From Candidatus Mediterraneibacter quadrami (GTDB lineage: Bacteria > Bacillota > Clostridia > Lachnospirales > Lachnospiraceae), in NCBI GenBank assembly GCA_019120575.1, contig DWUU01000024.1, positions 36,769 through 100,768 of the forward strand: a stretch of DNA of 64,000 bases, given 5' to 3'. Positions 27,615 through 45,165 of the stretch are shown here, piece after piece. The stretch's first letter is position 1, and every line of letters starts with the position of its first letter. The notes under the pieces are model-generated. The model was not told the DNA's origin and did not search any database. It saw only the letters and a list, made by a program, of their open reading frames with translations. The position numbers were made by a program, and so were the translations under genes.

Positions 27615-28507
27615 GGTTCATTCCTCTCTTCTGTGTGTTCGACGTTTCTCTTCTCTCCGACCCCGTAATGAATCAGTACCAGCAGTATCGCGGTAAGCGG
27701 GACGCAGCCGTAGATCAGCATCATCTGGACGATCTCCGGAAGGATCATTGACTCAAGTTCCACGCCGAGCGTGCCGAAGAAATTAAACAATGCATGGACC
27801 ATAACCGGAATGACCAGACTGCTGTAGCGCTCCGCCAGATAGCCGAGCAGGACGCCGATGCAGAATGCATAGATTCCCTGGACCAGATTGCCGTGATAGA
27901 TCCCGAACAGAACCGCCTGGATCAGATTGGCCGCCCAGAACCGTGCACCGCCCTTTTTCAGATAGTGAAGAATCAGGCCGCGGAACACCGTCTCTTCAAC
28001 CAGCGGCGGAAGGATCACTACCGCGAAGACCCATGTAAGAGAATAATCCGTTAATCCGGCGGATTCCACCATCTCCTCGTATGCCGCTACAGTTTCCGGA
28101 AGCATGAAGGCCAGAAATCCGATAATAATCGAAACGGCATGCTGTACTGCATAGGCTAGAACGAGCGTCCACAGAATCCCTGCAGGCGTGATCTTCTTTG
28201 TCTGGGCTCTGGCAAAGGAAGCCGCGCCGTCTCTTCTGACCACTTCAAGCCAGTACCACAGGATAAAGGCAACAGCCGGAACCGTATATATGACACAGGA
28301 AACCAGATTCATATGATCAAGCAGGAACCAGTAGCCTGCCGAAAGACCTTCGCCCCCTCTTAGAAACAGGCCGAACAGGCTGACCACCGCCGCCAGCACG
28401 ATCGAGCCGCCGTAAAGCAGTATCAGCATCAGTACGAAAACCGATGCAGCCAACAGGTAATTTACATGTTTTTTCATCTTCTCATCTCCCGGTATTTTAA
28501 TCCGCAT
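27611..28507 (-). CDS. CPBP family intramembrane glutamic endopeptidase
   Basis: [39 protein letters not shown]. Confidence 0.9.
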
Positions 28508-29117
28508 TCCGGATCATTTTCTCTGCTTTATTGCGGATCCGCTGGATCGCATTGTCGATCGATTTCGGCGGCTTTTCCAGTATTTCCGCGATCTTTCTGT
28601 AATCGGTCCCCATAAGATGGAGATACAGTACATGGTTCTCCAGCGGACTGAGCTTCTCTTTCAGCTGTTCGATAAAGATCTCTGTGTATTCCCTGCTGAA
28701 ATAAAGCGCCGCCGGATCGGATTCCTTCTCGGTTCCGATGGTGTCAATCAGAGGAAGCTTCTTCCCGTCCCGGCGGACTTCGCTCTCCTCATAGAGCGAC
28801 ACATAGGAGTTCAGCGGAATATGCTTTTTCCTCTTTGACGCTTCGATGGCGCTGTACATCTGACGGGACACGCACAGCTGGGCGAAACTGCTGAAAGAAT
28901 TGCCGGCGGACGGGTCATAGTCCCGCACCGCCTTGATCAGTCCGATCATCCCCTCCTGGATCAGGTCTTCCGTCTCGCCGCCGAAGAGATACATGGCGCG
29001 GGCTTTCTTCCGGACCATGGATTTGTATTTATCCATAATATAGTCCGTCACCGCGGTATCGCCCTTTTTCAGTTCACGGATGAGCTGTTCATCCGTCATT
29101 GAATCATATTTACTCAT
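28497..29117 (-). CDS. sigH: RNA polymerase sporulation sigma factor SigH
   Basis: DYIMDKYKSMVRKKARAMYLFGGETEDLIQEGMIGLIKAVRDYDP. Confidence 0.93.
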   Translation of the reverse strand: MSKYDSMTDEQLIRELKKGDTAVTDYIMDKYKSMVRKKARAMYLFGGETEDLIQEGMIGLIKAVRDYDPSAGNSFSSFAQLCVSRQMYSAIEASKRKKHIPLNSYVSLYEESEVRRDGKKLPLIDTIGTEKESDPAALYFSREYTEIFIEQLKEKLSPLENHVLYLHLMGTDYRKIAEILEKPPKSIDNAIQRIRNKAEKMIRNAD

Positions 29118-35366: not shown

Positions 35367-35407
35367 TTATTTACGAATTATAACATACTTGTAAGACGAA
35401 GAAAAGC

Positions 35408-35428
35408 TGTCACATAGTGTGGCAGCAT
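35408..35428 (-). terminator. probable terminator of the STAS-to-psd operon
   Basis: Stem GCTGTCACA tag TGTGGCAGC, U-rich on minus strand. Confidence 0.5.
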
Positions 35429-35559: not shown

Positions 35560-36453
35560 TTAGTGTACGAGCATCTCTGTCTCCCGCGCATGCGCTGCTG
35601 TTCCGATGCGTTCCCCCATCCTTACCAGCGTCTCCACCTGTTCTCTGCTGTTCTTGATAATATCAGCATCGAGACGGATCCTGTCTTTTTCAAATCCAAG
35701 TATTACTGTAGATCCGCCGAACTCAAAATATCCTTTTTCCTCACCCCGGGATACGAGTGTCTCGCCGTGGCGGTTGCATATCTTACCCACCAGCATCGCG
35801 CCGACTTCCATCATCAGCACCGTGCCAAACCCGGCAGTTTCCAGAACGCTGTATTCTCTTGTATTCTCCCTGTAAACCGGCACTTCATCAACTGCGAATG
35901 GATTAACGCTGTGAAATACGCCTTTAATATGGACGTTTTTTGATTTCCTGCCATCCGCTATGTAACAGTAATGGTGGTAGTCATCAACCGTCAGCCGGAA
36001 GACAAGCAGCATACCGCCCTCGTATTTCTCAGCAAGCTTTCCATTTCTGAGAAGGCTCCGCAATGTATAAACGCTGTGTTTAATGCGGAATCGGCTGCCT
36101 TCCCTGACCGGAATGCATAGAAGTTTGGCGTCGCACGGGCTGATCAGGATTTCTTTTCCGGCACATACCGGCCGTTTTCCGGGAAGCAGCTTTCTGCGAA
36201 AGAATGCATTGTACGATGAAAAATACCTTTCCTCATAATCAGACAGGTCGATCCGGTATTTTTTTACTGCCGCCCCTGCCAGAAAGGATGACAGTTTCGT
36301 GTTCAAAAAACGTCCGGCTATTCCGGAGACAACCGGCTGAACAAGGGGCTTCATCAGAAGCCGTCCGGCCAGTGTACCGTACAAAAGCCGCAAAATCCGG
36401 TCCTGCTTTTCATTTCCTGTTATTTCGTTGCCCCTTCGGTCCCTGTATCTCAT
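35560..36453 (-). CDS. psd: phosphatidylserine decarboxylase
   Basis: ISPCDAKLLCIPV, VDDYHHYCYIADG, GSTVILGFEKDRI (GST cleavage motif). Confidence 0.93.
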   Translation of the reverse strand: MRYRDRRGNEITGNEKQDRILRLLYGTLAGRLLMKPLVQPVVSGIAGRFLNTKLSSFLAGAAVKKYRIDLSDYEERYFSSYNAFFRRKLLPGKRPVCAGKEILISPCDAKLLCIPVREGSRFRIKHSVYTLRSLLRNGKLAEKYEGGMLLVFRLTVDDYHHYCYIADGRKSKNVHIKGVFHSVNPFAVDEVPVYRENTREYSVLETAGFGTVLMMEVGAMLVGKICNRHGETLVSRGEEKGYFEFGGSTVILGFEKDRIRLDADIIKNSREQVETLVRMGERIGTAAHARETEMLVH

Positions 36454-36473
36454 GATTGTCTTTTCATCCTTTT

Positions 36474-37094
36474 CTAAATTCCTGCAGATATACAGATCAG
36501 CAGAGCAATGATGTCTGTGAGCATCAGTCCTCCCGCCACAGCCGGATGGGTTTTCGGAAGCGGAAAGTCAATGATATAGAAAATTCCGGTTATGACCAGC
36601 ATTGCCCCGAGCGCTGTCACAAAGACTGTGCCGGAAGTCCAGAGCCGGAGAAAATATACAAGGGGCAGGATCGCAGACATAAATGTGACCGGCAGACCGT
36701 GGTAATATCGCTTTTTGTCTTTCTCCGCTCCTCTGCATTCTTCCAGCATATTAAACCATGCCAGACGGATCACTGCACAAAAGCAATAGAAAATCAGGAT
36801 CCCCGTCCCTATCATTCCCCTGACGCCAAGTGAATAGCACAAAACAGCAGGAAAGACTCCGAAACTCACGACATCACAGAGTGAATCCAGCTGGATCCCG
36901 AAATGATGTTCTTCCGCAGTCCTGTCTTTCTTGGTCCGTGCGACGATCCCGTCCACACAGTCACAGAATCCAGCAAACATCAGACACGCGACCGCGATCG
37001 TGGGCTCTCCTTCCAGCGAAAATGTTATCCCTGTAACGGCAGACGCCATACCAAGACAGGTCAGCCATATCGTATAATTATAGTAGCCTAACAT
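36474..37094 (-). CDS. pssA: CDP-diacylglycerol--serine O-phosphatidyltransferase
   Basis: FAGFCDCVDGIVAR...FGIQLDSLCDVVSFGVFPA (CDP-alcohol phosphotransferase motif). Confidence 0.93.
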   Translation of the reverse strand: MLGYYNYTIWLTCLGMASAVTGITFSLEGEPTIAVACLMFAGFCDCVDGIVARTKKDRTAEEHHFGIQLDSLCDVVSFGVFPAVLCYSLGVRGMIGTGILIFYCFCAVIRLAWFNMLEECRGAEKDKKRYYHGLPVTFMSAILPLVYFLRLWTSGTVFVTALGAMLVITGIFYIIDFPLPKTHPAVAGGLMLTDIIALLICISAGI

Positions 37095-37115
37095 TGTTCA
37101 TTCCTTTCTCTGTTA

Positions 37116-38159
37116 TCAGATCACATATCTCAAAAAGGTCGCCACCTCACCCAGCACATAGTGGATAATGCACAGGCCCCAGATATTGCGCTGTCTGTTG
37201 TACAGCATTCCGAGCGCCCCCAGCAGGATCGATGCTGCCAGCATATACGGCAGTCCATAGTGGATATGCATGACGCCGAATGCCAGGGAAGATACAAATA
37301 CAGACATGCCCATGGCGTGTTTCCCGCTGAACACCCGGTTCAGGTTTTCCTGCATAACCCCCCTTGCCAGAAATTCCTGCAGGACTGCCGTTGCGGGATA
37401 GAAAATATCGGCAACGGTTCCTGCGCTCCAGTCCCAGAAAGGCGCACCCTCCGGGAAGAATCCAGGCGCGACACGAAGCAGGAGCACTTTCCCGCCAACC
37501 ATAACAACGGTTCCGATCACGGTGATCCATGCAGCCGGGACAAATGTCTTCCGGGCGTCTGTGATCCGCAGGCCGATATCATTAAAGGAAAAGCTTGTCG
37601 TTTTCAGGATGATCACAAACATAACCACAGAAATACATTCGATCACAATGCTCATCACCCACCCGGGCGGTTCTATGCCCATAAAACGGAGCAGACTCCA
37701 CAAAAACAGATAGCCGCAGATGCACGTCATCATCACCGCAAATACTGTGGACGACTCTCTTCGCTGACGGTTGATGTGTACGAGATCCGTGATGTCTGTA
37801 AATACAACCACGACTCCGACCCTCTCCGTTCCGCTTTCACCGGACAGAAAAGAGGAGGTCATGTTAAAATACTTCATGCCGCCGCCCGGGATCTTATAAG
37901 CCGCCTCTCCGGAATGGGCATTCTCCTTATCATAGACGGCGTCCAGCACAAACTGATGGAATCCGTCATTTGTTTCATCTGTTTCCTCCGCCAGAAAAGC
38001 CAGACTGTACTTCTGCCCTTCCGGACTGTCTTTTTTCCCCAGCAATGCGCGTCCGTTTTCATTTAAATATAAAATACTTCCTTTCGCGTCCAATACCAGA
38101 ACGCCCTCATTCATATCCCTTAATATCCGCGGAATGATTCTGTTTTCTTCCTTCAGCAT
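37116..38159 (-). CDS. PAS domain - CPBP (CAAX-protease-like) membrane protein
   Basis: N-terminal PAS (ILRDMNEGVLVLDAKGSILYLNENGRALLG...VVVVFTDITDLVHI) fused to CPBP region (LQEFLARGVMQENL, FGVMHIHYGL). Confidence 0.85.
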   Translation of the reverse strand: MLKEENRIIPRILRDMNEGVLVLDAKGSILYLNENGRALLGKKDSPEGQKYSLAFLAEETDETNDGFHQFVLDAVYDKENAHSGEAAYKIPGGGMKYFNMTSSFLSGESGTERVGVVVVFTDITDLVHINRQRRESSTVFAVMMTCICGYLFLWSLLRFMGIEPPGWVMSIVIECISVVMFVIILKTTSFSFNDIGLRITDARKTFVPAAWITVIGTVVMVGGKVLLLRVAPGFFPEGAPFWDWSAGTVADIFYPATAVLQEFLARGVMQENLNRVFSGKHAMGMSVFVSSLAFGVMHIHYGLPYMLAASILLGALGMLYNRQRNIWGLCIIHYVLGEVATFLRYVI

Positions 38160-38182
38160 TTAAGACCCTCCCCGGGAAACCG

Positions 38183-39772
38183 TTATCTTTTATTTCTTAA
38201 ACATCGTACGTCCAGCATTCCCAGCCTGCCTGACACAGCCACCGCAGTCACCTGCAGACAGGTCAGATTATTGGCTGTCATGACAAAATCGATCAGCGAG
38301 TTGATCGCCACCGCCAACGCGACGGCCTCTACCGGTATGCCAAGCTGCGTGAACATGACCGTATAACAGGTCAGTGCTCCTCCCGGTATGGGCGGTGCAG
38401 CCATTGCTAAAAGCCCGACTACGATTACCTTCGTAACAAGCCAGGGTAATGTAATGGCAACGCCATAGTTTTCCGCCATGCACAGACAGACAACAGAAAA
38501 TCCGAAAGCAGCAGCCGGCTTGAAGATCACCTGTCCAAGCGGGACTGCAAAATGGGAGAGATTCTGCGGGATCCCCAGTTCCTTTTCACAGGTCTCCATA
38601 TTTGTCGCAAAGGCCGCTGCAGAGGACGCCGTGGTTATTCCGATCAGGAAAGTCGGAAGCAGTTTCCTGATCAGTGTCCGAAACGCCACTTTATAGCGAA
38701 CAGACAGAACAGCCATAAACACAAGGCTGATAAGTGTACACCCGCCAAACGCGATGATCAGTGCCTTGACAATTCCTGTGATCTCCGAGTCAAAATCAGA
38801 TCCCATCAAACCGAAAAGACTGAAAAAGACAAAAACAGAGATCAGCCCTCCGATCGCTTCCATGAGGAGCTGCACCACTTCATTCATCTGCTCAATAACC
38901 GCCCGTGTAGCCGAAACCCGGTCACCCAGTATCAGAAGAGCGATTCCCACCGCCGCGCCCAGAAATATAATCTGCAGCGTATTGCCATCTAAAAACGGCG
39001 ATATAATATCTGACGGTACTATATCAAGAACGATCTGATAGATCTCGGAAAATCCTCCCACTGCTGTATTTTCGATTGCCAGCTCTGTCCGGAAAAGCCA
39101 CGAAACGCCAACAGCCGTCAGTGTACCTGTAAGAAAGGTCAGTGCAATGAAACGGACGATCACGATCTTTCCAATCCGTTCCATAACGGTCATATCTCCG
39201 ATATTGAAGATGCCCCAGCAGATTGCAAGAAATATCATCGGCGAAGATATGCTCCGCAGCAGGTTCAGGATCAGCGTGAATAGCGGATCCGTCACTGCCC
39301 GGATGCCGTTCTGCACATCAGACGGGAATACCCTCTGCAGCAGGCCAAGGACAACAGCTGACAAAATAGCGATCAGCAGCTTCTGCATCTGCCCCATCTT
39401 CTGTCTGGCGGGCGGATTGACTGTCAGACAGTTTTCGCCCCTTTTATAACTTCTGACAAGCGTAAGACCTGCCTGCGCAAGGAGTCGGCTGGAAAACATC
39501 AGATTTTCCAGTCCTTCGTCAGACCGGATCTCACGTCCCTCAATACGGATTTCGACCACCTGTTTTCCCATCCGCCTGCCCGTGAGAAACGTAACCGGTG
39601 CATTTTCAAGAAACGACAGCCAGCTCTCCAGTATTTCCTCCAGCGAAATGCGCAGTCTCAGCACATCTTTCCGGTCAACTTCCATTTCTGTCAGAGCTGC
39701 TGAAAATTCCTGTGAAATTTTATCTATACCTTCTGCCGAGAGCAGATAACTTTTCTTCTCCACTTCTGCCAA
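38183..39772 (-). CDS. SLC1 (dicarboxylate/amino acid:cation symporter)-fold protein with N-terminal GHKL-like extension
   Basis: C-terminal about 400 aa with SLC1 features (GITTASSAAAFATN, VPLGQVIF, PPIPGGAL, SLIDFVMTANNLT); N-terminal about 120 aa soluble extension. Confidence 0.85.
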   Translation of the reverse strand: MAEVEKKSYLLSAEGIDKISQEFSAALTEMEVDRKDVLRLRISLEEILESWLSFLENAPVTFLTGRRMGKQVVEIRIEGREIRSDEGLENLMFSSRLLAQAGLTLVRSYKRGENCLTVNPPARQKMGQMQKLLIAILSAVVLGLLQRVFPSDVQNGIRAVTDPLFTLILNLLRSISSPMIFLAICWGIFNIGDMTVMERIGKIVIVRFIALTFLTGTLTAVGVSWLFRTELAIENTAVGGFSEIYQIVLDIVPSDIISPFLDGNTLQIIFLGAAVGIALLILGDRVSATRAVIEQMNEVVQLLMEAIGGLISVFVFFSLFGLMGSDFDSEITGIVKALIIAFGGCTLISLVFMAVLSVRYKVAFRTLIRKLLPTFLIGITTASSAAAFATNMETCEKELGIPQNLSHFAVPLGQVIFKPAAAFGFSVVCLCMAENYGVAITLPWLVTKVIVVGLLAMAAPPIPGGALTCYTVMFTQLGIPVEAVALAVAINSLIDFVMTANNLTCLQVTAVAVSGRLGMLDVRCLRNKR

Positions 39773-39792
39773 TTTGACCTGTTATTCCTTCC

Positions 39793-42636
39793 TTATCTTT
39801 TTTTCTTTATAATCAGGCGGTTCCAGCCCTCTGAATACTCATACGTCACCTCGTCCATGGTCTTTTTAACCATGAAAATACCAAGCCCGCCGATCTCCCG
39901 CTCTTCCGCCGAAAGTGTGATATCCGGATCATCCTGTTCAAGAGGATTATACGGCCTTCCATCATCCGTAAATACAAGCATGATCAGGCTGTCATCCACT
40001 GAGCATTCAACGGTGGCTTTTGTGGCACCGCTGTAGAGCCGGATATTGGAATATATTTCATCCACTGCAATGTTCATTTTCATCGCGGTATTCACAGGCA
40101 CTTCCGCCCGGTCAAGGGTCTGCTCTACAAAGTCGAGTACCGCCTGCATATTATCCTCTTTCGGATCAATTGTGATCATGTGCTTCGGGATCATCCTCAG
40201 GCAAAGCATGGTCATGTCATCAAACTGCGGCGCATCGCCCACAAACGCATCTACATCCTGCTTTACCCCACGGCAGACGTTCCCCGCATCCGCACCGGCC
40301 AGGCGGTTCAGAACATTCTTTAATCTCTCATCCCCGTAAAGCCGGTTATGGACGTCTGTCGCCTCGGTCACACCGTCTGTATAGAGAAATATTTCGTCCC
40401 CGGGTGCCAGTTCAAATTCACCGCTCCTGTATTTTACGCTGTCCAGGCCGCCGAGGACGAAACCGGGACGCGACCTGAAGAATTCGTAGCTTCCGTTCTG
40501 ATGTCTGATCAGCGGCGGATTATGCCCAGCATTCGCGAATTGAACCATATGTGTTTTAAAATTCAGGATCCCCATCCAGCAGGTCACGAACATTTCCGCT
40601 TCATTATTTTCACACAGGGCTGTATTCGCGCTTGAGAGTATTTTCGCGACATCACTCTCTTTGTCCGCGTAACTCTTGAGCAGCGTTTTTGCCTTCATCA
40701 TAAACATGGCGGCTGATATCCCTTTACCGGACACGTCGGCCATCAGAAATGCAAGACGGTTCTCATCCAGAAGATAGAAATCGTAAAAATCCCCGCCCAC
40801 TTCTCTTGCCGTATCCATTGTCGCATGGATGTCAAAATCCGTCCGTTCCGGATAAGGCGGGAATACAGACGGAAGCGTAGAAAACTGGATCGTCTTTGCA
40901 AATTCCAGCTCATTATCGATCCGTGCCGCCGCCTCTGCAATATAGCCCTTAAGCGTATCGACGGTAGAATTGATATCATCGGAAAGGGATACAAACTCTT
41001 CATTCGTCCGGACATCCACAGAAACATTCAGATTTCCGCCTGTGATCTCTTCCAGGGACCTGTTGATCCGCTGGATATTTTCTACCACCAGTTTTTTTAC
41101 AAGAAAATAGATCAGCACAAACAGACCGGCGAACACGAGGATTTCAATAAAAATCGTAATATACAGAGAAACATCGCGGCCAAATACGACCTCCGACACC
41201 GGCATGACGCCGATAATATAATATCCTTCTGCAACGTCGTACATCAGATAACATTCTTCCCCGTACACTTTCTCTGTCAGCAGTCTGCCTCCGCCTTCCG
41301 GGCTCCACTTTTCTCTGCTTCCGCTCTCGCTGTTCAGGCCCAGATGCTGCCGGATCCCCGTTACACCCAGATTCATTCCCTCATGACCGGCCGGATCGCT
41401 TACCAGATTGAAATCTTCATTCGCGATAAGCATAAAACCGTTTTCTCCTACATGGCGGTTTCTCGTAAGGCCTGTCACCTGTTCATCAATATCCCTCTGA
41501 AATCTCTTGGAATCATATCCCACCTGGACAAAACCGCCGCCGTCCAGAACAGCGCCGGCATATTTCATCGACACGCCGCCGTAAGAAACTGTCTGATATC
41601 TCTGTACCAGCTCTTCTTCTCCATTCAGCAGGGTCATAAATTCTTCCGACTGCTCTCCGCTGCTCATATCAAAATCCAGATATTCCGGCGTTGTGCTTGC
41701 GACAATGATTCCACGGTCATTCACAACATTGATCTCGGAAACATCATTTTCTTTCAGGAGCGCGAAAAGCGTGCTTTCTTCAAAATTGCCGGTTCGTTCC
41801 AGATCATCCCGTATTTCACGTGTCAGTTCCAGCAGATTTTCATCCGATGCATCATTAATGTCGGCCCTTACATCTTTAATGTACAGAGAAAGCATCTCAT
41901 CCGCGTCATCTACCGCAAGCCTTGTCTGCAGCATGTAGATGAACAGACTGGAAACCGCAAAAGCCAGTACGACACAGAACGTCAGCCAGCGTGAGAACGC
42001 CTGCGCCAGCTGAAGCCTGTATTTTTTCCGCCCGGCCCGGCTAAGTTCCCCTGCAAGAACGGATACTGCAAACATAGCCAGCGTTACGGATCCCGCGTTC
42101 AGCACGATCATCGGTACGGCATAGCGTTCCACCAGAATGAACGACTGCCGCACATCCCCCATATTGCCGGAAAATACAAGAAGCATATTGACCACTTCCA
42201 ACACAGTTCCCGATGCCAGCCCATAGCACCAGACAGGTCGTTTATCATCAAAAAGCCACTTTCTGAGCGCCGCGCCCAGGATACCTGCAAAAACTGTAGT
42301 GAGGCTTGCGCTGACCCCTGTGTAAGCTCCGACATCACACAGTGCGGCTATATATCGCTCTGCGCCTCCGGTCACCCCGGCTAGAACACCTGCCGGCGCA
42401 CCGAAAACAAGGCCTGCGCACAAAGGAGCCGCATCTCTGGCGCTGATAAGGACTCCATTTGAGGAAATCCCCGACTCTGTGGCAAATACAGCGATCAGAC
42501 CGAATACCAGACCATATATGACCTGTTTGTACATTCCCGGCATCTGTGCAAACCTGGATTTTTTGCCGCACTGATAAAAAAGAACCGATGCTGCCGCAGG
42601 GCAGAGGGCTGCCGGCAATACCTGTATGCATGACAT
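39793..42636 (-). CDS. membrane-sensor SpoIIE/RsbU-type PP2C phosphatase: 5TM-Lyt-like + Cache-like + HAMP + PP2C + C-terminal GHKL (RsbW-like) domain
   Basis: GAPAGVLAGVTGGAERY (5TMR-Lyt), MADVSGKGISAAMF and DDMTMLCLRM (PP2C), VDEIYSN...DDGRPYNP...GGLGIFMVKKTMD (GHKL); start moved to the ATG preceded by GAGGAGGTATTGT. Confidence 0.9.
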   Translation of the reverse strand: MSCIQVLPAALCPAAASVLFYQCGKKSRFAQMPGMYKQVIYGLVFGLIAVFATESGISSNGVLISARDAAPLCAGLVFGAPAGVLAGVTGGAERYIAALCDVGAYTGVSASLTTVFAGILGAALRKWLFDDKRPVWCYGLASGTVLEVVNMLLVFSGNMGDVRQSFILVERYAVPMIVLNAGSVTLAMFAVSVLAGELSRAGRKKYRLQLAQAFSRWLTFCVVLAFAVSSLFIYMLQTRLAVDDADEMLSLYIKDVRADINDASDENLLELTREIRDDLERTGNFEESTLFALLKENDVSEINVVNDRGIIVASTTPEYLDFDMSSGEQSEEFMTLLNGEEELVQRYQTVSYGGVSMKYAGAVLDGGGFVQVGYDSKRFQRDIDEQVTGLTRNRHVGENGFMLIANEDFNLVSDPAGHEGMNLGVTGIRQHLGLNSESGSREKWSPEGGGRLLTEKVYGEECYLMYDVAEGYYIIGVMPVSEVVFGRDVSLYITIFIEILVFAGLFVLIYFLVKKLVVENIQRINRSLEEITGGNLNVSVDVRTNEEFVSLSDDINSTVDTLKGYIAEAAARIDNELEFAKTIQFSTLPSVFPPYPERTDFDIHATMDTAREVGGDFYDFYLLDENRLAFLMADVSGKGISAAMFMMKAKTLLKSYADKESDVAKILSSANTALCENNEAEMFVTCWMGILNFKTHMVQFANAGHNPPLIRHQNGSYEFFRSRPGFVLGGLDSVKYRSGEFELAPGDEIFLYTDGVTEATDVHNRLYGDERLKNVLNRLAGADAGNVCRGVKQDVDAFVGDAPQFDDMTMLCLRMIPKHMITIDPKEDNMQAVLDFVEQTLDRAEVPVNTAMKMNIAVDEIYSNIRLYSGATKATVECSVDDSLIMLVFTDDGRPYNPLEQDDPDITLSAEEREIGGLGIFMVKKTMDEVTYEYSEGWNRLIIKKKR

Positions 42637-42661
42637 ACAATACCTCCTCTTCAGAGAGAGG

Positions 42662-42958
42662 TTACTCAATGTTTAAAATATCAACGAACCCCGTAACCTC
42701 GAATACTTCCATAACCACGTCGCCCACATTTTTAAGCGTCATCTTTCCCTGTCTGTTCATGATCTTCTGCATGGCAAGAAGCACGCGAAGCCCGGCAGAC
42801 GAGATATACTCCAATTTCCCGAAATCAAGTACAAGATCCGTTATACCGTCAATACTGTTCCGGAGTTCTTCCTCCATCTGCGGAGAGGTCGTAGTGTCAA
42901 GCCGTCCCTCCACCGCAACGGTTAAAGCAGTTCCATTTAAAGTTTTCTGAATCTCCAT
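42662..42958 (-). CDS. STAS domain anti-sigma factor antagonist (RsbV/SpoIIAA-like)
   Basis: GRLDTTTSPQMEEEL...LDFGKLEYISSAGLRVLL (phospho-acceptor Ser motif); RBS GGAGG. Confidence 0.93.
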   Translation of the reverse strand: MEIQKTLNGTALTVAVEGRLDTTTSPQMEEELRNSIDGITDLVLDFGKLEYISSAGLRVLLAMQKIMNRQGKMTLKNVGDVVMEVFEVTGFVDILNIE

Positions 42959-43084
42959 AATCTACCTCCGCATTTGCATATTTTCCCAGTCATACGTTTG
43001 AAAATGATACTACTGTTATCTGTTTTATATTCAGAGAAATACGAAATTGGTCGAAATCATTCCGAAATTGGTCGTTTTCAGGAA

Positions 43085-43107
43085 AACAAAAGACCGCCCG
43101 AAGGCGG
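43085..43107 (-). terminator. terminator of the GHKL kinase/LytTR pair, upstream of the STAS operon
   Basis: CCGCC cgaa GGCGG stem followed by TTTTGTTTT on minus strand. Confidence 0.75.
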
Positions 43108-43126
43108 CCGTAGAGAATTACAGATT

Positions 43127-44413
43127 TTATATTTTTGAATTAAGGATGACGCAGGCTGTGCAGATATTCCCGCTGATTTTATAACTGAGTTCACCATGAT
43201 ACCGTTCAGCCGACGTGACAATACTGTCTATGCCGGTTCCCCGGTAAACCGGCATTCCGTTTTCCAGTTTAAAACCGACATAACAGGGATTACTTACAAC
43301 GATCACTGTTTTCTTCCCTACATCTTTAATGTTCACCCGGACACTCCCATGAACTTCCGTCTTAATACAGGCATGAAACGCATTTTCTAGAAGGTTGGCA
43401 AGTATGGCTACAAAGTCTGAATCTGCAATTTCAGACCGGGACGGAGTATCTGCCCGGGCTGTGAATTCGATTCCAGCCTCTTTCGCCTTCCCTGCGTAAG
43501 AACTCAGTATTCCGTTGACCATAACATGGGGACACCAGGCATGGGGAGTCTCAATCTCATCCTTTTCACGGCCGAGATAACGCAGAATTCCTTCCGTGTC
43601 TCCCAGCCGCGCCATCATGGCGATCTGTTCATCGTGGTGACGCTTGTCGTGACGGATGCGACGGGTCTCCTGCTCTGCTTTGCTGACAGATTCGATGTAC
43701 GATGTCAGATACTCGATATTCTGTTTTGCAAGCTCTGCCCTTGCTTCCTTTCGCATATAATATATATTGCTGATGCTCAGGATATTAACCGCGGCAAATG
43801 TACACACAATTATCAGAAAGAAAGTCAACGTATCAGAGCGGATCCCTTCATCCAGTCGGATCCTGTTCAGAAGCAGCATAAATACAATCAGATACAATAC
43901 TGAAATCCAGCACAGCATTCTCCAGCTTTTTCCACGGGATCCGCTGACTTCGCGGATAAGAGGCCTTCCGTATTTGCGGTACAGGAGCAGGACCGGCAGA
44001 TAGATTGCCATATAAAATGCAGCGCGGACAACATACAGCTTCGGCTCGGCACAGTCCGGGAAAAACATATAACTCAGGAAGATCGTAATCGACCAGACAA
44101 TGGAGAACACACAGGCATATGTAACCCACAGGTAGCATTTTTTCCAGAATCCGTCCGCAGAGACACAGATAAATGTTATCAGATAATACAGATAAGCGAA
44201 TATAAAAGGAACCGGCAGTATAAGCGGTTCCGGCAGAAGTCCGAAACCCAGATAGATATCCAGCAGGAGCACGATCCCTGCCAGCGCCCACACAGCCACC
44301 GTCTTTTTCACAGAATATCTCCTCTCCTGCAGGGAGACCGCTGCCAGCATATGAACGATATAAATCGCTGTTCCGATAAAAAAAACGGTTTTGATATATT
44401 GAAGATCCAGCAT
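43127..44413 (-). CDS. GHKL (AgrC-like) sensor histidine kinase
   Basis: 6-7 TM N-terminus, RRIRHDKRHHDEQIAMMARLGD, LANLLENAFHAC. Confidence 0.9.
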   Translation of the reverse strand: MLDLQYIKTVFFIGTAIYIVHMLAAVSLQERRYSVKKTVAVWALAGIVLLLDIYLGFGLLPEPLILPVPFIFAYLYYLITFICVSADGFWKKCYLWVTYACVFSIVWSITIFLSYMFFPDCAEPKLYVVRAAFYMAIYLPVLLLYRKYGRPLIREVSGSRGKSWRMLCWISVLYLIVFMLLLNRIRLDEGIRSDTLTFFLIIVCTFAAVNILSISNIYYMRKEARAELAKQNIEYLTSYIESVSKAEQETRRIRHDKRHHDEQIAMMARLGDTEGILRYLGREKDEIETPHAWCPHVMVNGILSSYAGKAKEAGIEFTARADTPSRSEIADSDFVAILANLLENAFHACIKTEVHGSVRVNIKDVGKKTVIVVSNPCYVGFKLENGMPVYRGTGIDSIVTSAERYHGELSYKISGNICTACVILNSKI

Positions 44414-45141
44414 CAGCTTTCCGCCTCCTTCAGATAAAAATCAAAATACGCCTGTTTTATCCTCGTGCGCAGCCTGCGCGGAACAGGAATGCGTACATTG
44501 TTATCCATCACAAGATCCATACCGGAAAAGCAGCGCACATGACGCAGGTTGACTATATAGGAAACTCCGCAGGCCACCATGCCCCTGTCCTCCGGCAGAT
44601 ATTCCTGCAGACGGGCAGAAGAAAGCCGGGTCATCCTCTCTTCTCCAGATGTGAGGAAAAACACCCGGCACTTATCCCGGGTCTCCACATAGAGAATATC
44701 TTCAAGCGCGATGCGGTGCACTTCCCCCTCGGTTGGGAGAAGGATCCAGGTCCGTTCACGGCGTCTGGCGATCACACGATCAAGAGAATCATTGAATTTT
44801 TCCTGTGTATAAGGCTTCCGGATATAATCAGCGGCATGAATTGAGAATGCATCTACAGCATAATCAGAACTGTTGGTGAGAAAGATAATGTCTGTGCTCT
44901 CACTGCATCGGAGAATATCCCGCGCCAGCTCTGTTCCAAGCATTCCGGGCATGCAGATATCCAGCAGCGCAATATCCGGGCCGCCTTTTTTTTCAAAAGC
45001 ATCCAGCATCTCAAAAGCAGATGAATATGTATCAAACAAGATACCGTATTCCCGGTGTTCCTCTGCGTAGATCCTCAGATTTCCGGCAATCAGTTCTCTG
45101 TCTCTGGCATCATCATCACAAATCGAGATCTTAAGCATCAT
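44413..45141 (-). CDS. LytTR family response regulator
   Basis: ISICDDDARDREL...ALLDICMPGMLG; C-terminal LytTR DNA-binding domain. Confidence 0.92.
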   Translation of the reverse strand: MMLKISICDDDARDRELIAGNLRIYAEEHREYGILFDTYSSAFEMLDAFEKKGGPDIALLDICMPGMLGTELARDILRCSESTDIIFLTNSSDYAVDAFSIHAADYIRKPYTQEKFNDSLDRVIARRRERTWILLPTEGEVHRIALEDILYVETRDKCRVFFLTSGEERMTRLSSARLQEYLPEDRGMVACGVSYIVNLRHVRCFSGMDLVMDNNVRIPVPRRLRTRIKQAYFDFYLKEAES

Positions 45142-45165
45142 TCCGTTCTCCCTGATCATTAACTA

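Follow-up and report, generated by a model that had tools for sequence, protein, structure and literature searches.

A partner-switching operon of Candidatus Mediterraneibacter quadrami with a membrane transporter, fitted with a GHKL receiver domain, as its probable output

What does a partner switch control when no sigma factor is encoded with it? Partner switching is known mainly for the control of sigma factors, and a few systems control an enzyme. The question is raised by a six-gene operon of Candidatus Mediterraneibacter quadrami, located in a 64,000-nucleotide stretch of contig DWUU01000024.1 (hereafter the window). The initial annotation of this DNA described six minus-strand genes separated by gaps of 20–25 bp, and proposed the adjacent membrane protein or phosphatidylethanolamine (PE) synthesis as the output. 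All six genes were found at the coordinates it gave, in the order STAS, 5TM/HAMP/PP2C/GHKL, GHKL-SLC1, PAS-CPBP, pssA and psd. The gaps hold as well, provided that the PP2C gene is started at the ATG at 42636, with AGGAGG just 5′ of it, instead of at the TTG at 42669, and the operon is indeed devoid of a sigma factor. Our results favor the membrane protein over a sigma factor as the target, for the GHKL domain on the SLC1 protein goes with STAS and PP2C, both genome by genome and in gene neighborhoods, far more often than chance would allow.

The first gene (42662–42958; this and all features below lie on the minus strand of the window) encodes an RsbV/SpoIIAA-like STAS protein of 98 amino acids (aa), recognized by Pfam STAS (3.6e-16), TIGR00377 and PDB matches to RsbV and SpoIIAA. 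The phospho-acceptor Ser is conserved within YISSAGLR, S53/S54 being invariant in the STAS alignment. The second gene (39793–42636, start corrected) encodes a sensor phosphatase/kinase with 5TM-LYT, a putative extracytoplasmic sensor, HAMP, PP2C and a C-terminal GHKL of the catalytic type. Pfam finds 5TM-5TMR_LYT, a weak HAMP, SpoIIE/PP2C (1.4e-52) and HATPase_c_2 (7e-14) in it. This bears out the annotated domain string except for its Cache region, a label assigned from position and architecture, with no Pfam match of its own. The PP2C/SpoIIE domain (40192–40767) carries the metal-site motifs GGDFYD, ADVSGKG, LYTDG and DDMT. In the C-terminal GHKL domain (39805–40161), identified by Pfam and profile alignment, the N-box, DxG and GGLG are intact, and this domain is most likely the kinase of the circuit, predicted to act on STAS. 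A constituent of an Rsb/SpoIIA circuit missing in or near the locus is a sigma factor, or other target, bound by the kinase. None lies in the operon and ten are elsewhere in the assembly (2.19 Mb, 94% complete), the nearest being a SigH-looking gene at 28497–29117, beside an rlmB-like gene. The only other STAS found in the genome is SpoIIAA, which has SpoIIAB and a sigma gene as neighbors. The genome has another RsbW-like GHKL gene amid iron-sulfur-protein genes (L200; G000 contig C13, about 22.4 kb), and the part of the contig that was read there encodes neither a STAS nor a sigma factor.

The third gene (38183–39772) encodes a GHKL-SLC1 fusion protein of 529 aa, identified by Pfam SDF and by profile and structure comparison. 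Its N-terminal extension (about residues 1–120; 39413–39772) had been called GHKL-like, and has no GHKL match in Pfam. A profile built exclusively from catalytic GHKL domains (PP2C-fused, free and APH-fused) matched most SLC1 N-domains in register, weakly, and profile-profile comparison of the two sets by hhalign gave 98.5% with an E value of 1.6e-15. Five-model AlphaFold2 prediction for window residues 1–126 plus 30 relatives reached a predicted local distance difference test (pLDDT) of 86.7 and a predicted template modeling score (pTM) of 0.81. The 15 PDB matches of the modeled domain at E≤1e-3 in Foldseek were, every one, SpoIIAB, RsbW or UsfX, many of them in complexes with STAS or sigma partners. 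The extension is therefore of the RsbW/SpoIIAB-type fold by both approaches. The ATP-binding motifs of the family did not persist with the fold. In the combined alignment, the E..N N-box, DxG and GGLG are kept in PP2C-fused, free and APH-fused GHKL domains, whereas the Asn, the Asp and GGLG are lost in all SLC1- and ABC-fused domains and the motifs are partly degraded in MATE-fused ones; in the window SLC1 protein the N-box Asn position is occupied by Ser. This motif-level loss of the catalytic site had been missed in the initial annotation. Because the ATP-site motifs are lost in the SLC1 domain and kept in that of the PP2C protein, the former looks most likely to be a pseudokinase, that is, a non-catalytic receiver, and the latter to be the kinase. 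The SLC1-fused domains have diverged fast, with about 12% identity left to the kinase set, and E45, G79, Y109, G112 and N114 are invariant across about 76 loci of several families.

The remainder of the protein is an SLC1 transporter domain (38231–39382; Pfam SDF/SLC1 7e-54, Foldseek and alignment) with altered Na+ and substrate sites. By alignment to a solved SLC1 chain, from which the residue numbers are taken, NMDGT is changed to FKPAA, and Leu and Met are found in place of the last Asp of transmembrane helix 8 (TM8; D405) and the substrate Arg (R397), respectively. The clade of the window protein retains the two TM8 residues in contact with the amino group, an Asp/Glu and a Thr (D394 and T398 equivalents), and a second GHKL-SLC1 clade retains NMDG and the TM8 Asp. 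Among solved structures, ancestral uncoupled aspartate transporters come closest. Since the Na+ and substrate motifs are lost and the relatives are uncoupled, the protein likely either transports a neutral amino acid independently of Na+ or serves as a receptor. Compared with GltPh, GltTk, SstT and the ancestral uncoupled aspartate transporter 9bh0, the SLC1 fold, the hairpin 1 (HP1) serines and the TM8 Asp/Thr are shared, whereas the window clade is without NMDGT and the R397 and D405 equivalents and has the N-terminal GHKL domain.

In a family sample of 250 genomes, one per genus, scored for a close relative of the window STAS, all 20 genomes with a GHKL-SLC1 frame (own genome included) were positive, compared with 22/77 of those with unfused SLC1 only and 40/153 of those without SLC1 (hypergeometric p 1e-10, own genome left out). 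In an independent comparison, GHKL-bearing frames of MATE size (570–645 aa), for some of which the MATE identity was verified, occurred in 27 genomes, all STAS-positive (p 2e-15). Shared ancestry inflates such p values, and more weight is therefore placed on local linkage. Of the 67 GHKL-SLC1 genes with enough flank, 36 have STAS or PP2C no more than 10 kb away, compared with none of the 20 unfused SLC1 control genes, all taken from STAS-positive genomes; about 0.005 STAS genes per 20 kb are expected by chance.

A search of 85,488 species genomes yielded 79 loci, about 76 of them fusions, in Lachnospiraceae, Oscillospiraceae and other Clostridia, plus metagenome-assembled genomes (MAGs) labelled Spirochaetales or Sphaerochaeta. 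The closest of these are in Oscillibacter sp. MSJ-31 (L119, 68%) and a Sphaerochaeta MAG (L120, 69%). The modules in MAGs labelled Sphaerochaeta, Spirochaetales and Methanocorpusculaceae (L120, L176, L181, L148) may reflect horizontal transfer or misbinning. The fusion was found in only 3 of 57 other species of the genus of the window; the distribution of the module is therefore patchy, and on an evolutionary time scale it is probably mobile. The gene order is no peculiarity of one strain, for STAS, PP2C and GHKL-SLC1 stand together in many genera and a close match is found in Candidatus Limiplasma stercoravium (L177). A stop codon interrupts GHKL-SLC1 in L112 (8512–9282) and in L192 (Candidatus Mediterraneibacter pullicola), with PP2C and STAS open, owing to a broken copy or an assembly error. 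GHKL-SLC1 genes are doubled, in tandem or nearly so, in L150, L152, L153, L156, L161 and L162, and genes for an ABC importer and ABC-GHKL precede most of them.

GHKL modules of the same kind, also missed in the initial annotation, are borne by other transporters. MATE exporters with a C-terminal GHKL occur in STAS/PP2C clusters of the family (Pfam MatE and HATPase_c_2 in L035, L101, L105, L114 and L119; Pfam MatE in L049). ABC amino-acid importers with a C-terminal GHKL are found in STAS/PP2C clusters as SBP-BPD-ABC-GHKL chains of about 900–1140 aa, and ABC-GHKL chains of about 360–390 aa likewise. Profile-profile scores tie the ABC- and MATE-fused domains to the same superfamily. In L184, GHKL-SLC1, an ABC permease, ABC-GHKL, STAS, MATE-GHKL, a GH3 enzyme, PP2C and a free GHKL follow one another in a single operon, and similar sets are found in L120, L123, L124, L128, L131, L137, L138, L142, L144 and L146. 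The SLC1, MATE and ABC fusions share operons with STAS and PP2C (L184, L120, L137 and L146).

The cargo of these loci differs. GH3 genes occur in L069, L077, L105 and L184, and genes resembling lysyl-phosphatidylglycerol (lysyl-PG) synthase in L067, L115 and L186. GH3 acyl-amido-synthetase-like genes adjoin MATE-GHKL (L105:7123–8862, L069:3615–5213, L184:16995–18665). In Lachnospiraceae 1XD21-87, a nonribosomal peptide synthetase (NRPS) of 1418 aa and C-A-T-R type (Condensation, AMP-binding, PP-binding and NAD_binding_4 reductase; L151:4215–8468) lies between STAS and PP2C, next to ABC-GHKL and GHKL-SLC1, with genes of the same size in L178 and L188. The common theme suggested by the cargo is the joining of amino acids to lipids or acyl groups, giving amino-acid-derived lipids or amides.

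In the window, the cargo position is taken by three genes. The PAS-CPBP membrane protein (37116–38159; Pfam PAS and Rce1-like CPBP) recurs next to PP2C in L115, and L035 has the two in one cluster. CPBP proteases carry EExxxR, the role of whose first Glu is known from Rce1. Like CPBP/Rce1-type proteins, the PAS-CPBP proteins have the Rce1-like domain, FxxxH and a distal His, but they differ in their N-terminal PAS and in QExxxR for EExxxR in 7 of 7 aligned copies (QEFLAR), and may therefore be inactive as proteases. A general role of PAS-CPBP was rejected, the protein being rare. The pssA-like gene (36474–37094) for a CDP-diacylglycerol-serine O-phosphatidyltransferase matches Pfam CDP-OH_P_transf, with TIGR00473 below cut-off, and psd (35560–36453), for a phosphatidylserine decarboxylase, matches PS_Dcarbxylase and is the single copy found in the assembly. 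TIGR/NCBI equivalog cut-offs were not reached for PssA or Psd, while the motifs DGIVAR...GIQLDSLCD (with a longer spacer than DGxxAR...GxxxDxxxD) and the cleavage motif FGGST are present. On one strand of L177 lie PP2C (72% identity), PAS-CPBP (76%), pssA (65%) and psd (71%), close-packed, and then GHKL-SLC1 (42%). As the same set occurs there, the PE-synthesis genes are no accident of one strain. Neither pssA nor psd carries a GHKL domain, and the suggestion that PE synthesis is controlled through GHKL found no support. The pair was also rejected as a general part of the system, its linkage being confined to the window and L177.

We consider it rather probable that the operon encodes a complete partner-switching relay directed at a membrane transporter in place of a sigma factor, with unphosphorylated STAS acting through the GHKL receiver of the SLC1 protein. 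The parts are evident from the sequence or from structure prediction: a receptor-phosphatase that also carries a catalytic-type GHKL, a STAS with a phospho-serine, and an SLC1 protein with a degenerate RsbW/SpoIIAB-fold domain. In such a relay, an extracytoplasmic ligand would set the activity of PP2C, and the C-terminal GHKL would phosphorylate STAS, a modification that PP2C would reverse. Unphosphorylated STAS would dock on the SLC1 pseudokinase, as RsbV does on RsbW, and the docking would open or close amino-acid transport. PAS-CPBP, pssA and psd would be co-expressed cargo for the synthesis of phosphatidylserine and PE, to which the SLC1 protein might supply serine or another neutral amino acid related to it. 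Relatives have different cargo (GH3, lysyl-PG-synthase-like, NRPS), and their MATE and ABC transporters bear what would be equivalent receivers. A wider proposal is put forward tentatively, with less than even expectation: the GHKL pseudokinase may be a portable STAS receiver that renders transporters as unrelated as SLC1 proteins, MATE exporters and ABC amino-acid importers phospho-switched, and in gut Clostridia such circuits may govern amino-acid uptake, the coupling of amino acids to lipids or acyl groups (pssA/psd, lysyl-PG-synthase-like, GH3, C-A-T-R NRPS) and product export.

Several observations weigh against the transporter as output. The canonical Na+ ligands are lost in the window SLC1 clade, making transport itself uncertain, and 21 of the 67 GHKL-SLC1 loci have no module gene in reach, though many are on short contigs. 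No STAS was found in the captured stretch of L177. On the cargo side, the pssA/psd linkage is seen in two loci only, and PAS-CPBP occurs in 6 of 250 genera of the family sample and in no other genome of 392 in a class sample. The loss of the Na+ ligands and of the Arg that binds the side-chain carboxylate, with the D394/T398 equivalents kept, would also suit a flow in the reverse direction. The SLC1 protein would then be a substrate receptor (transceptor) whose GHKL captures STAS or pairs with the kinase GHKL, so that the transport state feeds the STAS switch and the output lies elsewhere. The nearest solved relatives, being uncoupled, fit this too, and there is precedent for transporters that serve signalling proteins as co-sensors, such as DctA with DcuS (PMC5703999). 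However, the second GHKL-SLC1 clade retains NMDG and the TM8 Asp, the phosphatase has a membrane sensor of its own, and no other output is encoded. A domain found on exporters (MATE) as well as importers (ABC) is also easier to understand as a common output than as a common sensor, and we regard the reversed flow as unlikely.

It is improbable, in our estimate, that the circuit is a classical transcriptional one, in which STAS controls a sigma factor via an anti-sigma kinase elsewhere, such as SpoIIAB, and does no more than share a transcript with the transporter, CPBP and lipid genes. Such an arrangement would leave unexplained why GHKL is fused to three transporter types only where STAS exists. 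No sigma-factor target was found in the operon or near the other RsbW-like genes of the genome; SpoIIAB has its own STAS alongside, and the remaining RsbW-like gene has iron-sulfur neighbors. These points stand against the facts that STAS, PP2C and GHKL are standard Rsb/SpoIIA parts, that the assembly has ten sigma-factor genes, and that an extracytoplasmic function (ECF)-like sigma factor is encoded inside the related locus L035. Equally little probability is given to a relic or assembly domain, by which the SLC1 GHKL would be purely structural and the clustering would reflect joint transcription of an amino-acid/lipid gene cluster. A lost ATP site and fast divergence would be expected of a relic, yet the domain is kept with its invariant residues, none of the unfused SLC1 genes inspected has it, and its co-occurrence with STAS extends to cases in which the two are not neighbors.

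Returning to the transporter-directed relay, its expression is probably set by a LytTR pair. Upstream of the operon lie genes for an AgrC-like membrane GHKL histidine kinase (43127–44413; Pfam HATPase_c_5, weak AgrC match) and for its partner, a LytTR response regulator (44413–45159; Pfam Response_reg and LytTR), a probable transcriptional regulator of the operon. Such regulator/kinase pairs are also directly 5′ of the module in L119 and L120. Between the pair and STAS sits a tandem repeat, ACCAATTTCG-N11-ACCAATTTCG (43042–43072), likewise overlooked in the initial annotation and conserved ahead of the operon in L119, L120 and L177. Its 21-bp period fits the spacing of LytTR direct repeats, and it is a putative operator through which the pair would act. 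At ≤2 mismatches it has four occurrences in 2.44 Mb of fetched sequence, namely the window, L119, L120 and L177, all upstream of the operon and in its direction. No other spacing tried gave a match at ≤4 mismatches. At ≤5 mismatches shuffled halves average five matches, so only the four tight matches were counted. The terminator annotated ahead of the operon is present as a strong intrinsic terminator that sets it apart from the two-component pair (43092–43109; terminator scan, fold z −3.5). The one placed after psd appears as a possible hairpin (35406–35426) that is weaker (−8.8 kcal/mol, z −2.0) and absent from the consensus-scan output.

Further genes accompany the module in relatives. In L076 (8487–10391), STAS is fused to an AMP-binding (acyl/aminoacyl ligase) enzyme within a STAS/PP2C/GHKL cluster. 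STAS-APH(-GHKL) fusions, with a small-molecule-kinase-like enzyme, occur at L083:1780–3387, L103:6226–7803, L092:1–1398 and L044:9043–10230, three of the four with a catalytic-type GHKL domain. A gene of about 240–320 aa without a Pfam match lies 5′ of GHKL-SLC1 in about 11 of 67 loci (L113:3627–4400, L114:7076–7912, L112:9331–10218). A cyclic-nucleotide-binding-domain protein follows GHKL-SLC1 in L184 (11615–12118), with similar-sized genes there in several other Lachnospiraceae loci. A 316-aa protein of L115 (10895–11842), with no Pfam match and a C-terminal GHKL-like domain, neighbors EamA, the lysyl-PG-synthase-like gene, PP2C and PAS-CPBP.

Much of this is already known in parts: partner switching from Rsb and SpoIIA, non-sigma outputs from SiaABCD, and STAS action on transporters from MlaB and SLC26. 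RsbVWU and SpoIIAA-AB-E of Bacillus share the phospho-Ser STAS, PP2C, the GHKL Ser kinase and the RsbW/SpoIIAB fold of the SLC1 N-domain; here, by contrast, there is no sigma factor, kinase and phosphatase are on one chain, and an extra motif-dead GHKL is on a transporter. SiaABCD of Pseudomonas aeruginosa also has a HAMP-PP2C phosphatase, a kinase, a STAS-like switch and a non-sigma output, the activation of a diguanylate cyclase (PMC7647112, PMC8457831), but its output enzyme is without a GHKL receiver and the target is cyclic di-GMP synthesis, not transport. In MlaB-MlaF and SLC26/SulP a STAS domain acts on a membrane transporter, and the phosphosite equivalent of MlaB sits in the MlaB-MlaF interface (PMC7367683); there, however, STAS either binds directly to the ABC ATPase or is a fused domain, a GHKL receiver is lacking, and no kinase/phosphatase pair has been demonstrated. 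SLC1 and such fusions go unmentioned in a review of STAS-only proteins (PMC8256260). No published description of the locus, or of GHKL receivers on SLC1, MATE or ABC transporters, was found in a search whose coverage excludes most subscription journals. What appears new is that, across gut Clostridia, at least three transporter superfamilies have members with a built-in GHKL receiver, in the sampled family always with STAS in the genome, and this points to a so far undescribed direct control of transport.

If STAS binds the GHKL domains of these transporters, uptake and export would be controlled by an extracellular signal in a direct, fast and post-translational manner. The regulation of transporters by STAS, an open question for SLC26 and MlaB, would become testable. 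The finding would also tie the control of transport to the amino-acid-derived lipids and amides of gut bacteria.
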